NCBI GenBank assembly: GCA_945882065.1
Contig: CAMCWI010000008.1
Coordinates: forward strand, 1 to 36,793
Reading direction: 5' to 3'
Origin: Akkermansia muciniphila
Lineage (GTDB): Bacteria; Verrucomicrobiota; Verrucomicrobiia; Limisphaerales; JADLHS01
Length of the DNA stretch: 36,793 nucleotides
Of the stretch, positions 7,631-22,479 are shown piece after piece (within the stretch, counting starts at the first letter, position 1; each line of letters begins with the position of its first letter). The position numbers were made by a program, and so were the translations under genes. The notes under the pieces are model-generated. The model saw only the letters and a program-made list of their open reading frames with translations, had not been told where the DNA came from and ran no database searches.

Positions 7631-8356
7631 ATGCTAAACATAACCACCGAAGACATTGCCAAAAAATTTGGATTAGAGTCTGTTCCGGAAAGCGTTAAAC
7701 GGTTGAGCCAACTTCTTGGCAAACGTGATGCTAGCACGGAAGATTTCGCCAAATTGATTTCGCAGGACAAAGACCTCACCGCACGATTGCTACGCGCCGC
7801 AAATCCACGCGCTGAATCTGAAGAAGACTACACGACGACAACCGTCGAGGATGCGCTCGGGCGCACCGGCATGAGCAGCGCCCTGTTGTTGGCGATGAGT
7901 GATCCACTCATCCGAGCTGTCCACAAATCTTTTGCACTGATGCTCAAGATCGAGCTGAAAGCACTTGCACCAACTGCTCTGGATCCGCTGAAGGAAGAAC
8001 ACGTGCTCGGTGAAGTGAGCTTTTCCGGCAAAGCTATCGGCCTTGTGCATCTGCGATTGCCCAACGCGTTTCTGCCATTGCTCGGCGAACGTCTTCTAGG
8101 TCTCGCGCCTGACGACATGGAAGACGAAGCCACGGCAAACGACGTCATTGGAGAGCTATGCAACATGATCGTCGGCAATTTCAAATCCAACCTGTGCGAC
8201 GCCGGACTCACCTGCAAACTCAGCCCGCCCAAGATCGCCAGAACTGAAGAATTCAAATTGCGTGTCGTTGACGGAGGAACGTCTCAGCGTTACGGCTTTT
8301 GCGCCAAGGAACTCGATTTCTTCGCCGACCTCAGCGTGAATCCCTGGAGCGAGTAA
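7631..8356 (+). CDS. Fusion of a truncated N-terminal HDOD-like half to a CheX-like domain
   Basis: N-term VPESVKRLSQLLGKRDASTEDFAKLISQDKDLTARLLRAANP...VEDALGRTGMSSALLLAMSDPL aligns by eye with the HDOD N-terminal half; C-term NDVIGELCNMIVGNFKSNLCDAGLTCKL matches the CheX protein at 5575-6066. Confidence 0.8.
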   Translation: MLNITTEDIAKKFGLESVPESVKRLSQLLGKRDASTEDFAKLISQDKDLTARLLRAANPRAESEEDYTTTTVEDALGRTGMSSALLLAMSDPLIRAVHKSFALMLKIELKALAPTALDPLKEEHVLGEVSFSGKAIGLVHLRLPNAFLPLLGERLLGLAPDDMEDEATANDVIGELCNMIVGNFKSNLCDAGLTCKLSPPKIARTEEFKLRVVDGGTSQRYGFCAKELDFFADLSVNPWSE

Positions 8357-15738: not shown

Positions 15739-16752
15739 TCAGAAATCAAACTGGTCAATGTTGGCCTTGTTGAAGATGAAAGGTTTGCCAAGCAGGATGC
15801 TATCGCCTTCGATCTGGTATTCTCCCATTGAACCTACCTTGATGGTTTTGTCGCCTGTTTTGAGAGTTCCCTTCGCCAATGAGTCCGCCGCGAAGACCGC
15901 CAAGTAGCCGAGGTCTTCCGTGTTCCAAAGAATGACGCTGTCGGTCACTCCGTCATGGACGTAACGCCTGTTCTCGTTCGGCAGGCCGAGGCCGAGAACT
16001 TTCACTTTGCCGGTCTTGCCCGCCTGCTTCACCGCTTCCGCCGCGCCGGGAACACCGGGCGAACAGATCGCCATGATGCACTTGAGGTTCGCGTTCGCGC
16101 TTAACAACGCCGTGGTCTCGCTTTGCGCCTTATCTTTCAGATCATCGCACGGACGGAGCGCGATCATTTTCATGTTCGGATATTTGTCAGCACGACGAGC
16201 TTCAATGTGCTTCTGCCACTCGATCATGTTTCCAGCGGTGAGACTCGCCGTGATGATGGCGAACTCGCCTTCATTGCCGCACAACCGCGCCGCCTCGTCC
16301 ATCAGCGTGAAGCCGATGCCTTCGGGCGTGGCTTGATTGACAAAAAATTCCCGGGCGTCCGGCAACGCATCGGCGTCATACGTGATGACCTTGATGCCTT
16401 TGGCCTTGGCCTTGCGCAACGCGGTGGAGATGCCCTCGCGGTTCTCACAGGCTACGGCAATCGCATCCACGCCGAGCGTGATCCAATTCTCGACGATCTC
16501 GTTCTGCTTCGCGGGATCGGGATCGGTCGGGCCGTCAAACACGAGATCAACGCCGAGTTCCTTTGCCGCTTTGTCCGCGCCCTTCTTGCACGAGATGAAG
16601 TAAGCGTTGCCCTTGGACTTGGGCATGAGTGCGACGGTGATTTTCTTACCGCCATCGGGAGTGGTCGAGCCGCTGTTGCTCGAATCGGATTTGCCGCAAC
16701 CGCTCACGAATGCGATTCCGGCAACGAGTAGGAGTGAAATGATTTTCTTCAT
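15739..16752 (-). CDS. Sugar ABC transporter substrate-binding lipoprotein (RbsB/RhaS-like)
   Basis: Lipobox LLLVAGIAFVSGCGKS; periplasmic binding protein motifs KITVALMPKSKGNAYFISCKKGADKAAKELGVDLVFDGPTDPDPAKQNEIVENWI. Confidence 0.9.
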   Translation of the reverse strand: MKKIISLLLVAGIAFVSGCGKSDSSNSGSTTPDGGKKITVALMPKSKGNAYFISCKKGADKAAKELGVDLVFDGPTDPDPAKQNEIVENWITLGVDAIAVACENREGISTALRKAKAKGIKVITYDADALPDAREFFVNQATPEGIGFTLMDEAARLCGNEGEFAIITASLTAGNMIEWQKHIEARRADKYPNMKMIALRPCDDLKDKAQSETTALLSANANLKCIMAICSPGVPGAAEAVKQAGKTGKVKVLGLGLPNENRRYVHDGVTDSVILWNTEDLGYLAVFAADSLAKGTLKTGDKTIKVGSMGEYQIEGDSILLGKPFIFNKANIDQFDF

Positions 16753-17756
16753 GTGATGATTGGTTTGGTAACGGAAGTTTGCCGACGCGCGTTCAATGAG
16801 GCGAGCATTTTCGAGATGATGGAACTGGTCAACGCGAGAATCAAAAGTAGTCCGGTCAACATGCCGGCGACTTCGCGGGGTTGACGCGCATGAACGAGAC
16901 CGTTGTTCAACACTGCAATCGCCGCTACGCCCAGCAGCGTTCCGTGAACCGTGCCGACGCCGCCAAAAATACTCGTACCGCCCAGCACCACCGCCGTAAT
17001 CGCGAACAATTCATAGCCCATGCCCGCATCCGCCTTCGCCTGACCGAGCCGCGAGGTGTAAATGATCGCCGCCACCGCCGCGATGATTCCGGCCAGCACG
17101 TAGGCCATTGCCAGTCGGCGCTCAACCGAGATTCCGGCGTAGCGAGTTCCTTCCGGAGCGAAGCCGATGGCGCGGAATGAACGTCCAAACGTCGTGCGAT
17201 GCACCAGCAACCAGATGCCGATGGCAACGAGGATGAAGATGGGTGCTTGCGCCGGAATGCCGAGCCAGCGTTCCTGACCGAGAAATAGAAAAGATGCGGG
17301 AAAATTCGTGAACGTGTCCGCACCGCGCGTGATGGCTTCCGCCAGTCCGCGAAACAGCGAGAACGTACCGAGCGTGACGATCAGCGGCGGCAATCGCAGC
17401 CAGGTGATGAGTGTGGCGTTGAGCCCGCCGGCCAGCGCGCCGATTCCGATGGTGCAAGCCGCCGCCAGTGGGATGGACATACCCGCATCGCGCCAGAATT
17501 TGCCGAACAAGATCGCGCACAATCCCAGCAGCGAGCCGACCGACAGATCAATTCCGCCCGTGAGAATGATCGGCGTCATCACCAGCGCGAGCAGGCCGAT
17601 CTCGACGGAATGCCGCATGATGTCAAAGGTGTTGTCCACCGAGCCGAAGCGCGGCCCGACAGAGTTGAAGTAAAGCCACTCCAGCAGCACGACGAACAGC
17701 AAGATCGTTTCATGCCGGAGCAGGATGGCTTTGAATCCGTGTTTATCGGTGTTCAT
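16749..17756 (-). CDS. Sugar ABC transporter permease (RbsC/RhaQ-like)
   Basis: ILTGGIDLSVGSLLGLCAILFG, VLGGTSIFGGVGTVHGTLLG. Confidence 0.92.
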   Translation of the reverse strand: MNTDKHGFKAILLRHETILLFVVLLEWLYFNSVGPRFGSVDNTFDIMRHSVEIGLLALVMTPIILTGGIDLSVGSLLGLCAILFGKFWRDAGMSIPLAAACTIGIGALAGGLNATLITWLRLPPLIVTLGTFSLFRGLAEAITRGADTFTNFPASFLFLGQERWLGIPAQAPIFILVAIGIWLLVHRTTFGRSFRAIGFAPEGTRYAGISVERRLAMAYVLAGIIAAVAAIIYTSRLGQAKADAGMGYELFAITAVVLGGTSIFGGVGTVHGTLLGVAAIAVLNNGLVHARQPREVAGMLTGLLLILALTSSIISKMLASLNARRQTSVTKPIIT

Positions 17757-17763
17757 CCGTGGT
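17734..17763. repeat. 10-mer tandem repeat covering the start codon and first codons of the permease gene
   Basis: Minus strand ACCACGGATG-AACACCGATA-AACACGGATT; encodes MNTDKHGF. Confidence 0.7.
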
Positions 17764-18692
17764 TAGTTCCTTTGCTTTCTGGTTCGCAAACCATCCGCCA
17801 CGACCGCGAGCAGGATGATCGCGCCTTGAATCGCTTTTTCCCAATACGCTTCGATGTGCAGATGCGTCAACGCCGGGCTGATGCACGCGAGCAGCAACAA
17901 ACCGACGAACACCCCCCAAAGTTTTCCGCGTCCGCCCGACACTGCCACGCCGCCGACGACAGCAGCCGCGATGACCTTGAGTTCCAGTCCCGAGCCGGAC
18001 TTGGGATCAACTTGCGGCGATTGAACCACGTTCATCATCGCGGCCAACCCCACGAGCGCACCCATAAAAACAAACACGAAAAAAATGGTGAGCTGCGGAC
18101 GAATGCCCGCGAGCCGCGCGGCTTCGGCATCCGTGCCGACGGCGTAAACGAATCGTCCGGCGGAAAGATGTTTAGTCGCCAACGCCAGCAACACAAGCAG
18201 CGCGAGCGCGGCGAGAATGAGCGTCCATTGTCCCGCGATCTGGCTCAATCCGACCCATTGCAACCCGTCTGGCAGATTCACGAACTCGCCCTGCCGCTGC
18301 CAGCGCAACGCCTCGCGCCACGTTACCATCGTTGCCAGAGTCACGACGATGGAGGGCAAGCGCAGTCCCGCCACGAGCCAGCCGTTGACTGCGCCCATGA
18401 TCGCCCCGAATAGTACTGACGAGAGAAACACCAGTGGCAATGGCCAGCCTTTTGCGGCGAGTAAACCCCCGCACACGCTGCACACGGCGAACTGCGAGCC
18501 GACCGAAATATCAATCTGCCGACTGATGATGACGAGTGCCATGCCGCACGCGACCACGAGCGTTGGCGCTTCGCGCGTGAGCAGCGAGAGCAGCGGCTGC
18601 GGCTGGAAAAACGCCGGAGCAACAATCGCCAGGCCAAGCAGAACGACGAGCAGAGCGGCGGCGACGGAGAGTTCGCGGAAATGGCGTTTCAT
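17763..18692 (-). CDS. Sugar ABC transporter permease (RbsC/RhaP-like)
   Basis: VIISRQIDISVGSQFAVCSVCGG, AAVVGGVAVSGGRGKLWGVFVG. Confidence 0.92.
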   Translation of the reverse strand: MKRHFRELSVAAALLVVLLGLAIVAPAFFQPQPLLSLLTREAPTLVVACGMALVIISRQIDISVGSQFAVCSVCGGLLAAKGWPLPLVFLSSVLFGAIMGAVNGWLVAGLRLPSIVVTLATMVTWREALRWQRQGEFVNLPDGLQWVGLSQIAGQWTLILAALALLVLLALATKHLSAGRFVYAVGTDAEAARLAGIRPQLTIFFVFVFMGALVGLAAMMNVVQSPQVDPKSGSGLELKVIAAAVVGGVAVSGGRGKLWGVFVGLLLLACISPALTHLHIEAYWEKAIQGAIILLAVVADGLRTRKQRN

Positions 18693-18719
18693 CGGGTGCA
18701 GAACGGTTTGGGGAAAATA

Positions 18720-18787
18720 GGCAGAACAATTGACGGCATAATAATGGGAAACAGAGTCTTCATTATTCTGTCCTCAATAGTTCTGCC
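18720..18787. repeat. 68-bp imperfect palindrome (27-bp arms, 23/27 matching, 14-nt loop)
   Basis: GGCAGAACAATTGACGGCATAATAATG / loop GGAAACAGAGTCTT / CATTATTCTGTCCTCAATAGTTCTGCC; lies between the ATPase and permease genes of the sugar ABC operon. Confidence 0.9.
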
Positions 18788-18818
18788 AGATGTTTTATCC
18801 GAAATGAGGCGCATACAA

Positions 18819-20309
18819 TCAGTTCTGTTTTCCTAACGCCGCCGCCATCACTTCATGTGCATCGGTCTTGGCGAGGAGCATTGCAGTAATCGTTCCGCCG
18901 CGCATGACGGCGATGCGGTCGCTCATGCCGAGGACTTCCGGCAGGTCGCTCGAAATCATCAGCACGGCCAGACCTTCCTTGGCAAGGCGACGGATGATCT
19001 TGTGGATTTCACTTTTTGCACCCACGTCCACGCCTTGAGTTGGTTCGTCGAGAATGAGCAGCTTGGGTTTTGTCGCGAGCCAGCGGGCAAGGGAAACCTT
19101 TTGCTGATTGCCGCCGCTCAACGAACCGCCGGGTGCGTCGGGGCCGTACGCTTTCACGCCGAGATCGTGGGTGAAATCCAGTGCTAGTTGTCTCTCCGCA
19201 CCAAAGCGCAACCATGTGCCGGGAAAAACGCGGTCGTGAATCGCCATGGTCATGTTATGCGCGATGGGCATTTCCAAAATTACGCCGTGGCGGCGACGAT
19301 CTTCCGGCACATATGCGATGCCGTGCGCGACAGCTTCCTTCGGTGTTGAAATCGTGATGCGCTGGCCATTCAACAGAATTTCGCCAGAGTCGGCGGGCGT
19401 GATGCCGAAGATCACCCGCGCTAGTTCCGTGCGCCCCGCGCCGACTAATCCTGCCATGCCGACGATTTCGCCAGCTCGCACATCCAGCGAGATATTCTCC
19501 ACGCCACCTGCCGCGCAACCGAGGTTCTTGAGCGAAAGAACAACATTGCCTGCTGCGCTTTCGGACGGCGGATAGATGGCTGAAACCTCGCGGCCCACCA
19601 TGAGTTTGATTAGCGAGGACTCGTTCATCTCGCCGACTTTGTTTGTTCCGACGCTCTCGCCGTCGCGCAACACTGTTACGCGATCGGCTAGCGCAAAGAT
19701 TTCTTCGAGGCGATGCGAGATGTAGATGACGCCTACGCCGCTCGCACGCAAATCCTTCACGACGGCGAACAACAGATGCTGCTCCTTCTGTGTGAGCGAC
19801 GCGGTCGGCTCGTCCATGATGACGATGCGGGCACCCGCGCCGAGCGCGCAGGCGATTTCGACGAGTTGCTGCTCAGGCATCGAGAGGGAGCGAACTTCTG
19901 CATCTGGCGAAATCTCTGCGCCGATGCGTTTGAGAAGCTCGGCGGCACGCTGTTGGCGTATGGCCCAATTCACTTTGCGAAATACCGACGCGGATTCGAG
20001 TCTCAGGCCGATGTTTTCTGCGACGGTGAGGTCGGGGAACAACGCGGGCTGCTGATAAATGCAGGCGATGCCGAGTTTGTGTGCGGACGCGGGCGTGAGT
20101 TGCGAAACGCTTTCGCCGTTGATCTTGATTGAGCCGCCGTCGGGTTGGTGCGCGCCGGTGATGACCTTGATGAGGGTGGATTTGCCTGCGCCATTTTCGC
20201 CGAGCAACGCGTGGACTTCGCCCGCATGCAGATCAAACGACACCCCCTTGAGCGCGCGCACCGCGCCGAAGGATTTCGTCACTGCTGAAAGTTGGAGGAG
20301 AGTTTTCAA
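18819..20309 (-). CDS. Sugar ABC transporter ATP-binding protein, two ATPase domains (RbsA/RhaT-like)
   Basis: GENGAGKSTLIKVITG, SMPEQQLVEIA, IVIMDEPTASLTQKE; second half LSGGNQQKVSLARWLATKPKLLILDEPTQGVDVGAK. Confidence 0.95.
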   Translation of the reverse strand: MKTLLQLSAVTKSFGAVRALKGVSFDLHAGEVHALLGENGAGKSTLIKVITGAHQPDGGSIKINGESVSQLTPASAHKLGIACIYQQPALFPDLTVAENIGLRLESASVFRKVNWAIRQQRAAELLKRIGAEISPDAEVRSLSMPEQQLVEIACALGAGARIVIMDEPTASLTQKEQHLLFAVVKDLRASGVGVIYISHRLEEIFALADRVTVLRDGESVGTNKVGEMNESSLIKLMVGREVSAIYPPSESAAGNVVLSLKNLGCAAGGVENISLDVRAGEIVGMAGLVGAGRTELARVIFGITPADSGEILLNGQRITISTPKEAVAHGIAYVPEDRRRHGVILEMPIAHNMTMAIHDRVFPGTWLRFGAERQLALDFTHDLGVKAYGPDAPGGSLSGGNQQKVSLARWLATKPKLLILDEPTQGVDVGAKSEIHKIIRRLAKEGLAVLMISSDLPEVLGMSDRIAVMRGGTITAMLLAKTDAHEVMAAALGKQN

Positions 20310-20490
20310 AACGTTAATCCGTTCCGGGCGTGAAGAAACTTCCTGCTGCGAGTCCGCTGAGCCGGTTCAGATTGAAGCCAAAAAATGGGTTCGTCATCCA
20401 AGCCAGGATTTTGCGGAAACACGCTCTGAAAGCAAGGCTAACGCTGTTCGCAAATACGGGGTGATCGCATCTCAGTTTTTTGGAGTCTCA

Positions 20491-20607
20491 CATTAACGCC
20501 AGGCTTCAGCCTGGTGTGAGGCGTGAACTCCGTCACGACCCGAAAACGGTTAAACCCGTTCTCGCCTCTCCCTCCACATAACACCCGGATGAGTCCGGGT
20601 GTTAATG
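20491..20607. repeat. Multi-arm palindromic module
   Basis: Outer CATTAACGCC / GGTGTTAATG; internal CCAGGCT-TC-AGCCTGG (20499-20514), GAGGCG/CGCCTC, CGTGA/TCACG, and perfect TAACACCCGGA-TGAG-TCCGGGTGTTA (20579-20604). Confidence 0.8.
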
Positions 20608-20694
20608 AGAAAAACCCGCTGCTCACAAAAACTGAGATGCGCCTGCGTGACTGAAAGTGCGGCACAAGTGGCGGCGTGCTGAGAAGGGGTGTTC

Positions 20695-20955
20695 CCCCGA
20701 AAGCGTTCGGGGTTGAGTTGGAGTTCACGCTTTAGCTTGTCGAGGCGGAAGGGGACACGCTAAACCATCTTGCGTGCGTGCGTTGCTGCGCCCGAGGACG
20801 GGCGCACTGCTCCAAACGCTTCGCGCAGTTGGTAGGGCGGGCAGTCCTCTGCCCGCCGCCTGTTGGAACGGGCGCGTCCTGCTTTACCACGACGGCGCGC
20901 ACGGAGTGGCGCGCCCTACCGTTTGGACAGCCCGGACTTGTCCGCGCTGTCCAAA
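20695..20955. repeat. Run of short perfect or near-perfect hairpins
   Basis: CCCCGAA-AGCG-TTCGGGG (20695-20712); TGCGCCCG-AGGA-CGGGCGCA (20787-20806); GGCGGGCAG-TCCT-CTGCCCGCC (20836-20857) inside GGTAGGGCG/CGCCCTACC (20831-20920); TTTGGACAGCcCGGAC-TT-GTCCGcGCTGTCCAAA (20922-20955). Confidence 0.85.
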
Positions 20956-21038
20956 GTAATCGGACTTTCACAACGCTGCTTTTCCATCGCATTGCCAAAT
21001 GTTTGCACGGCAGTCCTTCCACCTCCACCTGATTTCGG

Positions 21039-21078
21039 CGCGCCAAGTTGGCGCGACCGGTGGCGTTGAGCCAACGCC
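21039..21078. repeat. Two further short hairpins immediately upstream of ffh
   Basis: CGCGCCAA-G-TTGGCGCG (21039-21055) and GGCGTTG-AGC-CAACGCC (21062-21078). Confidence 0.75.
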
Positions 21079-21117
21079 CATCTTGCCTATTGTCCCGGGA
21101 AAATTTACGCTGACACT

Positions 21118-22479
21118 ATGTTCGAATCGCTCAGTAACAAGCTCCAGAATACTTTCCGCAACTTGCGCGGCCTCGGAAAAATCTCCGAGACCAACGTCAC
21201 TGATGCGTTGCGCGATGTGCGCATGGCATTGCTGGAAGCCGATGTGAATTTCAAGGTGGCGCGGGATTTCATTGAACGCGTCCAGACCAAATCCATCGGC
21301 GCGGAAGTCATCCAGAGCGTTCAGCCCGGCCAGCAGATCGTCAAAATCATCTCGGATGAACTCACTGAACTGCTCGGCTCGCAGAATGCCGGAATCAACT
21401 TCGACAAGAATCCAACCAGCATCATGATGGTTGGTTTGCATGGCGCGGGCAAAACCACTTCCTCCGGCAAACTCGCGAGGCTTATCCAGAAACAAGGTCG
21501 CCAGCCGTTACTCGTCGCAGCGGACGTGTATCGCCCGGCGGCGATGGAACAGCTCGAAACGCTCGGCAAGCAACTCGACATCCCCGTATTCGTGAAGCGC
21601 GGTGAGACCGATGTGTTGAAGATTGCGCGCGAGGCGTTGGCTTTCGCAGAAGCGAACAATCGCAATACGATCATCTTCGACACGGCGGGTCGCTTGCAGA
21701 TTGATGAACCGCTCGTGCAGGAACTCGTGCGCCTGCGCGACCTCGTGAAGCCGCAGGAAATTCTCCTCGTGCTCGACGCGGCCACCGGTCAGGAAGCGGT
21801 GAATGTCGCCACGCATTTCGATCAAGCGCTGAACATCACGGGGTCAATCCTCACTAAGCTGGACGGCGACGCGCGCGGCGGCGCGGCGTTGAGCATGAAA
21901 TCCGTCACCGGCAAGCCCATCAAGTTCATGGGCGTTGGCGAAAAGTTGGAAGACTTTGAGCCGTTTCATCCTGAGCGCATGGCGTCGCGGATTCTCGGCA
22001 TGGGCGACGTGGTGAGTTTGGTTGAAAAGGCGGCGGAAGCCGTGAGCGAAGACGATGCGCGGCGCATGGAAGAAAAGATGCGCAAAGGCGAGTTCTCGCT
22101 GGAAGATTTTCTCGAACAGTTGCGCCAGATGAAGAAGCTCGGCCCGCTCGAAGACTTGATGAAGATGCTGCCCGGGGGCGCGGCAGCGATGAAAGGTCAG
22201 GACATGTCGAAACAGGAAAAAGAATTCGTCCGCATGGAAGCGATGATCTGCGGCATGACGCCGAAGGAACGTGCGACACCGCAAATCCTGAACGCGAAAC
22301 GCCGCATCCGCATCGCCAAAGGCAGCGGCACGAGCGTGACGGAGTTGAACACCATGCTGAACAAGTTCACGCAGATGCAACAGATGATGAAAAAGATGGG
22401 CAAGATGCAAAAGATGATGGCGAAGATGGGCGGCATGGGCGGTATGGGCAGCGGAATGCCAGGGATGTTTGGGCGGTGA
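21118..22479 (+). CDS. ffh: Signal recognition particle protein Ffh/SRP54
   Basis: MFESLSNKLQNTFRNLRG, GLHGAGKTTSSGKLA, DVYRPAAMEQL, DTAGRLQIDEPL, TKLDGDARGGAALS, Met-rich M domain. Confidence 0.98.
   Translation: MFESLSNKLQNTFRNLRGLGKISETNVTDALRDVRMALLEADVNFKVARDFIERVQTKSIGAEVIQSVQPGQQIVKIISDELTELLGSQNAGINFDKNPTSIMMVGLHGAGKTTSSGKLARLIQKQGRQPLLVAADVYRPAAMEQLETLGKQLDIPVFVKRGETDVLKIAREALAFAEANNRNTIIFDTAGRLQIDEPLVQELVRLRDLVKPQEILLVLDAATGQEAVNVATHFDQALNITGSILTKLDGDARGGAALSMKSVTGKPIKFMGVGEKLEDFEPFHPERMASRILGMGDVVSLVEKAAEAVSEDDARRMEEKMRKGEFSLEDFLEQLRQMKKLGPLEDLMKMLPGGAAAMKGQDMSKQEKEFVRMEAMICGMTPKERATPQILNAKRRIRIAKGSGTSVTELNTMLNKFTQMQQMMKKMGKMQKMMAKMGGMGGMGSGMPGMFGR

Follow-up and report, generated by a model that had tools for sequence, protein, structure and literature searches.

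A stack of small, probably mobile hairpin repeats of several families between ffh and divergent ABC-transporter genes

The intergenic region upstream of ffh was found to contain a stack of seven palindromic modules, and is very probably a mosaic of non-autonomous mobile palindromes of the REP/BIME-like type, inserted side by side between divergent transcription units. At least seven families of small mobile hairpin repeats have left remnants in it, and for two or more of these a particular lineage of transposase is the partner in related bacteria. This reading is based on direct observation of an excess of hairpins, of the recurrence of the modules and their reshuffled order elsewhere, of the pairing of module B and the core of module A with transposases in relatives, and of presence or absence at matching sites elsewhere.

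The locus is located on contig C8 of a 3.86 Mb draft genome (348 contigs; completeness 89.7%), probably that of a verrucomicrobium to judge by its repeats and relatives, within a window that comprises the whole 36793 bp stretch of DNA analysed here. The hairpin unit (coordinates 20466–21083) lies between ffh, which encodes the signal recognition particle protein (21118–22479, forward strand; TIGR00959, 590.8 bits), and ABC-transporter genes in the divergent orientation (15739–20309, reverse strand; identified using Pfam). The latter encode an ATPase (18819–20309), two permeases (17763–18692 and 16749–17756) and a substrate-binding protein (15739–16752). An arrangement of tRNA-Tyr and ffh displaced by the ABC operon was considered but dropped; the tRNA gene in the window is for Leu. 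A first-pass annotation of the sequence had placed the hairpins at 20491–21078, coordinates that exclude the outermost inverted repeat belonging to module A.

Eight perfect stems with 7 bp or more and a loop of at most 8 nt were identified in the segment 20490–21078 (20499–20514, 20579–20604, 20695–20712, 20787–20806, 20836–20857, 20894–20915, 21039–21055 and 21062–21078), compared with 0.34 ± 0.57 (maximum 3) in 300 dinucleotide shuffles. Comparison with shuffled sequence had been set beforehand as a refuting test, and an excess was what it revealed. For stems of at least 8 bp, the density at this locus was joint first among 3877 windows in a 1.17-Mb sample of the same genome, and its folding as single-stranded DNA exceeded that of shuffles by 9.5 sd. 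In addition to the eight, a slightly imperfect hairpin, TTTGGACAGC, with 16-bp arms that are 94% complementary and a 2-nt loop, was found at 20922–20955. The palindromes quoted in the first-pass annotation were all present where it had placed them, and its description of many hairpins was correct, although the number is eight or nine and not quite the ten that it estimated.

The seven modules occur along the locus in the order A, X, E, D, B, F and C. Module A (20466–20641, forward strand) is a REP-type doublet in a palindromic frame, made up of an outer inverted repeat, CGCATCTCAGTTTTTTGGAG (20466–20485 and 20622–20641), the inner ends CATTAACGCC and GGTGTTAATG, and two hairpins (20499–20514 and 20579–20604). 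A central AACCGTTTCAACGGTT hairpin, present in full copies of A, has been lost from the copy at this locus. Full or near-full copies were identified on contigs C131, C251, C60, C19, C101 and C4, and the outer repeat was also found with other contents (L098 and L249). With respect to the criteria for MITEs, inverted repeats are present in module A, and no target-site duplication was resolved at the empty site corresponding to L019.

Module E, a truncated GGAG-tagged doublet, TTGGAGTTCACGCTTTAGCTTGTC...GACACGCTAAA (20717–20764, forward strand), is preceded by a left flank (20644–20716, forward strand; GCGTGACTGAAAGTGC...) within which lies module X, the palindrome CCCCGAAAGCGTTCGGGG (20695–20712). 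Intact copies of E are doublets of ~72 bp, other copies adjoin a flank, GTGACTGAAA, that is similar to this one, and E was also found in genomes G036 and G024. Module D (20780–20813, reverse strand) is a GGAG-tagged REP-like hairpin with its stem at 20787–20806 and a loop of 4 nt. Module B (20831–20920, forward strand) is a REP heterodimer, GGTAGGGCGGGCAGTCCTCTGCCCGCC ... GGCGCGCACGGAGTGGCGCGCCCTACC, that has its GTAG tags on the outside; its ends are GGTAGGGCG and CGCCCTACC, and at both ends the GTAG tag directly precedes a short hairpin. The two outer pairings reported in the first-pass annotation are therefore real, one consisting of the inner ends of A and the other of the ends of B. Module F, the imperfect hairpin TTTGGACAGCCCGGAC-TT-GTCCGCGCTGTCCAAA (20922–20955, forward strand), is related to TTTGGAGTGCGCGGACACGTCCGCGC on contig C227, and module C (21026–21083, forward strand) is a double hairpin (21039–21055 and 21062–21078) with a second copy on contig C329 (86% identity).

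All seven modules recur in the same genome, contrary to the other refuting outcome named in the first-pass annotation (recurrence of none of them), and the whole region gave 72 BLAST matches there. Searches were combined with module counts from the 1.17-Mb sample, which represents ~30% of the genome and in which B had 39 matches, D 27, A 10, E 8 and X 7; further occurrences of C and F are those on C329 and C227, respectively. Among the longer modules, copies were mostly 73–88% identical. Matches to the region were present in 24 of the 38 genomes searched, representing 17 of 31 genera. GTAGGGCGNNNC, from module B, occurred at 147 sites in the genome, compared with 71 for the reversed pattern, and many of these sites were paired 61 bp apart. 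On contig C329 the modules present are C, a D variant, D and B, in an order that differs from that at the locus, and the D–B unit recurs there together with its spacer. As the modules recur singly at many unrelated loci, and in another order on C329, the stack was assembled from independent parts.

When this locus was left out, the families formed 3 mixed pairs compared with 5.0 expected, and no clustering was seen beyond that due to their confinement to non-coding DNA. A test for clustering of the seven families at this locus beyond chance, in which 2000 random placements never brought more than four families within 600 bp, was set aside as biased, the families having been defined from this very locus.

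Repeats within 250 bp of 97 transposase loci were compared with the modules. GTAGGGC, the tag of module B, was found on both sides of all nine full-length DHLH RAYT loci (L211–L219; nine genera, identity of 55% or more). A tenth DHLH locus, L229, which is a 97%-identical fragment, has it on one side. It was absent from the remaining nine loci of the DHLH set, eight with <46% identity and one (L223) a fragment with 59%. The module A core was found on both sides of IS200-like transposases L341, L342 and L360 and on one side of L343, L344 and L346, whereas the 50 loci in the two RAYT classes all lacked it. The L168 protein matched the NCBIfam REP-associated tyrosine transposase model (81.1 bits; cut-off 80), that of L211 fell just under the cut-off of 80 for this model (77.6 bits), and that of L342 matched the NCBIfam IS200/IS605 transposase model (62.2 bits; cut-off 55). 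Judged from these flanking sequences, the B family pairs in relatives with the DHLH-motif RAYT clade, and the A core with an IS200-like Y1 transposase clade.

GGAG-tagged hairpins were present at 23 of 31 NHLH-type RAYT loci, at 17 of them on both sides (L091 and L162 being one and the same locus). A D-like sequence, GGAGCGCGGCCGTCCTCGGCCGCATC, flanks one NHLH-type RAYT (L181), and no RAYT had the exact stem of D next to it. Module D thus resembles the repeats of the NHLH-type RAYT clade at the level of the family, a weaker match than those for B and the A core, and modules E and F may be assigned to the same clade from the GGAG or GGAG-like tag alone.

In the assembled genome (89.7% complete), searches for a cognate transposase of B or of the A core found none. 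The genome does contain three genes that match the RAYT model (contigs C279, C153 and C69), and the repeats beside the first two of these are different ones. The NHLH-type RAYT on C279 (L091) has GGAG-tagged repeats on both sides and within its open frame. The RAYT on C153 (L362), which one match to X adjoins, is flanked by a different GTAG hairpin family, GTAGCGGCGGTCTGTGACCGCCG, and at least one further REP system is therefore present in this genome. The modules of the window were absent from the flanks of the top Pfam Y1_Tnp matches and of a 320-aa NHFH class of Y1 transposases, which carry their own repeats. The repeats flanking the NHFH class (L141–L160) are of the AAAGGGGTCAGTTCTTA / TAAGAACTGACCCCTTT type, and the class resembles the TIR-flanked transposases (TIRYT) in the available text of PMC3733652. 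An IS200-like transposase on contig C203 (L090) adjoins a restriction-modification-like frame and is flanked by CCTGGGGCGTTGCCCCAGG pairs.

Matching sites were examined in G005, the nearest relative compared, in which the ffh region is 86% identical. Sites occupied by B (L095 and L018), A (L019) and D (L255 and L248) were empty in G005. At one further matching site, a B doublet in this genome (L020; coordinates 281–366) corresponds to a D-type repeat in G005 (L271; coordinates 7998–8107).

B-type doublets were also found in frame inside long open frames, adding ~25–30 residues (for example GRAGSPLPAA...GAHGVTRPT). The host frames, named by eye from their translations, look like rsmB (L013:1508), a P-type ATPase gene (L017:1501), recQ (L023:1458), hemG (L095:6746), mfd (L006:1501), hrpA (L233:10125), and genes for a ketoacyl synthase (L026:1458), rluA (L259:5055) and a methyltransferase (L018:1502). 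The direction of movement is clearest for such copies inside genes. The recQ doublet was absent from six of the seven relatives with a match to recQ, and in the seventh, G009 (L364), it is in frame in the same loop. G009 belongs to another genus, and the shared doublet could have been inherited from a common ancestor, passed on by transfer, or inserted more than once in a loop that tolerates it. In the available text of PMC3733652, the verrucomicrobium Opitutus terrae is described as highly enriched in GTAG repeats, as the bacterium with the largest number of intragenic ones, and as having intragenic dimers.

The dispersed copies of every module, the other order on C329, the transposases flanked by B or the A core and the empty sites in G005 support the proposal in the first-pass annotation that the region is a landing zone for several palindromic repeat families. 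This applies to this spot and not as a general rule, as the families do not cluster beyond the effect of their confinement to non-coding DNA when the locus is omitted.

Each module would be a hairpin or an inverted hairpin doublet, or the remnant of one, that a Y1/HUH tyrosine transposase had moved in single-stranded form. The GTAG REP system to which module B belongs is paired with the DHLH-motif RAYT clade and the A core with the IS200-like Y1 clade, while D, E and F, with their GGAG or GGAG-like tags, may have belonged with a third clade, the NHLH-type RAYTs, whose flanking hairpins are tagged alike. Transposition by IS200/IS605 and RAYT proteins is known to proceed by a single-strand mechanism, and by analogy the same route is suggested here. 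Module B would be mobilised by a RAYT; the observation bearing on this is its presence or absence at matching sites. The order in which the modules were inserted is a matter of inference, and the stack may have survived since it lies upstream of both start regions, harming neither gene.

It may also be, though this seems unlikely, that existing REP hairpins attract unrelated REP families by serving as targets for other Y1 transposases, such that stacks grow at a few points that later become breakpoints of rearrangement. The site occupied by B in this genome and a D-type repeat in G005, the D–B unit on C329 and a change in gene order at the locus itself are compatible with hairpins acting as targets. 

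At the locus itself, homology with G005 extends to 20437 on the side of the ABC genes and begins again at 21072, just before ffh (L061 in G005), hence the mosaic coincides with the changed gene order. The neighbour of the ABC genes in G005 is a squalene-synthase-like gene, the counterpart of which is on contig C27 in this genome beside an apparent transposase remnant (both named by eye), and G005 lacks the A element there. Ahead of the ffh ATG, the two genomes have just 46 bp in common (21072–21117, forward strand), and this short segment presumably carries the native ffh start signals. Insertion at the exact ffh site was deduced rather than seen, as the contig with ffh in G005 reaches no further than 147 bp beyond the start codon on the upstream side.

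The location of the stack between two divergent genes, and the several proteins that BIMEs and REPs are reported to bind (available text of PMC2817692), would also fit modules that had been recruited as a working element, such as an insulator, a gyrase- or IHF-binding BIME or a bidirectional terminator between the operons. However, intrinsic terminators in the region show no excess (one compared with 1.5 expected from shuffles), and the ABC operon has a different neighbour in G005 without the A element, making such a role improbable.

A repeat-induced misassembly joining two unrelated pieces of the genome was considered, as the stack lies where gene order changes (20437/21072, with the squalene-synthase-like counterpart on C27) in a draft of 348 contigs. 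This is quite improbable, given that copies of the longer modules differ enough (mostly 73–88% identity) that they should rarely confuse an assembler, that the recurrence of D–B with its spacer on C329 indicates that at least this part is a real combination, and that the apparent transposase remnant on the C27 side of the old junction offers a biological cause.

The first-pass annotation had alternatively suggested a structured RNA. The locus folds as RNA 8.25 sd better than shuffles, and in the eight copies of module A compared, 10 of 36 pairs had both sides changed with pairing kept, although the RNAalifold covariation term was slightly unfavourable (+0.41). Kept pairing is also expected of DNA hairpins recognised by a transposase, and is thus no argument for RNA. 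A discrete structured non-coding RNA, or a long ffh leader acting through its fold, is highly improbable as no Rfam family reached threshold over the locus (best Yfr1, 20.3 bits; threshold 38), the modules recur singly at many unrelated loci and reordered on C329, the homology on the ffh side that begins only at 21072 leaves no conserved ffh leader in the stack, and no sigma-70-like promoter was found in the region, which is weak evidence in this phylum.

Read as a mosaic of mobile palindromes, an odd run of hairpins becomes an interpretable record of several past invasions by mobile repeats. The repeat types of one bacterial lineage can be linked to separate transposase clades, making the rules of recognition testable. 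The case also cautions against annotating stacks of this sort as RNA genes where they lie upstream of housekeeping genes.

GTAG REPs, their dimers and RAYTs, intragenic repeats and REP dimers nested in longer palindromes have been described already in the available text of Di Nocera et al. 2013 (PMC3733652) and Nunvar et al. 2010 (PMC2817692). Module B shares with the GTAG REPs and REPtrons described there a GTAG tag at one end, a short hairpin, inverted heterodimers, many dispersed copies, a flanking tyrosine transposase and copies inside genes, but differs from them in its stem words and RAYT clade, and from REPtrons in that a cognate RAYT was not found in the assembled genome. As in GTAG-15 of Anabaena variabilis, for which REP dimers inside longer palindromes are described in the same text of PMC3733652, module A has its doublet within a long outer inverted repeat, whereas here the partner of the doublet is an IS200-like transposase rather than a GTAG RAYT and the outer repeat can also enclose other contents (L098 and L249). 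The BIMEs and REPINs of E. coli and Pseudomonas (Bertels and Rainey 2011, PMC3116915) likewise include inverted REP pairs as one mobile unit and intergenic mosaics, but unrelated families of different transposase clades are stacked here in place of alternating copies of one REP. Similar in arrangement are mosaic intergenic regions of Neisseria, mentioned in PMC3733652 and compared here by that description, in which palindromic repeats of different families are interleaved in one intergenic region, though the repeat families are others. The kind of element, a REP/BIME-type mosaic, is therefore already known, and the present case adds a new stack to it.
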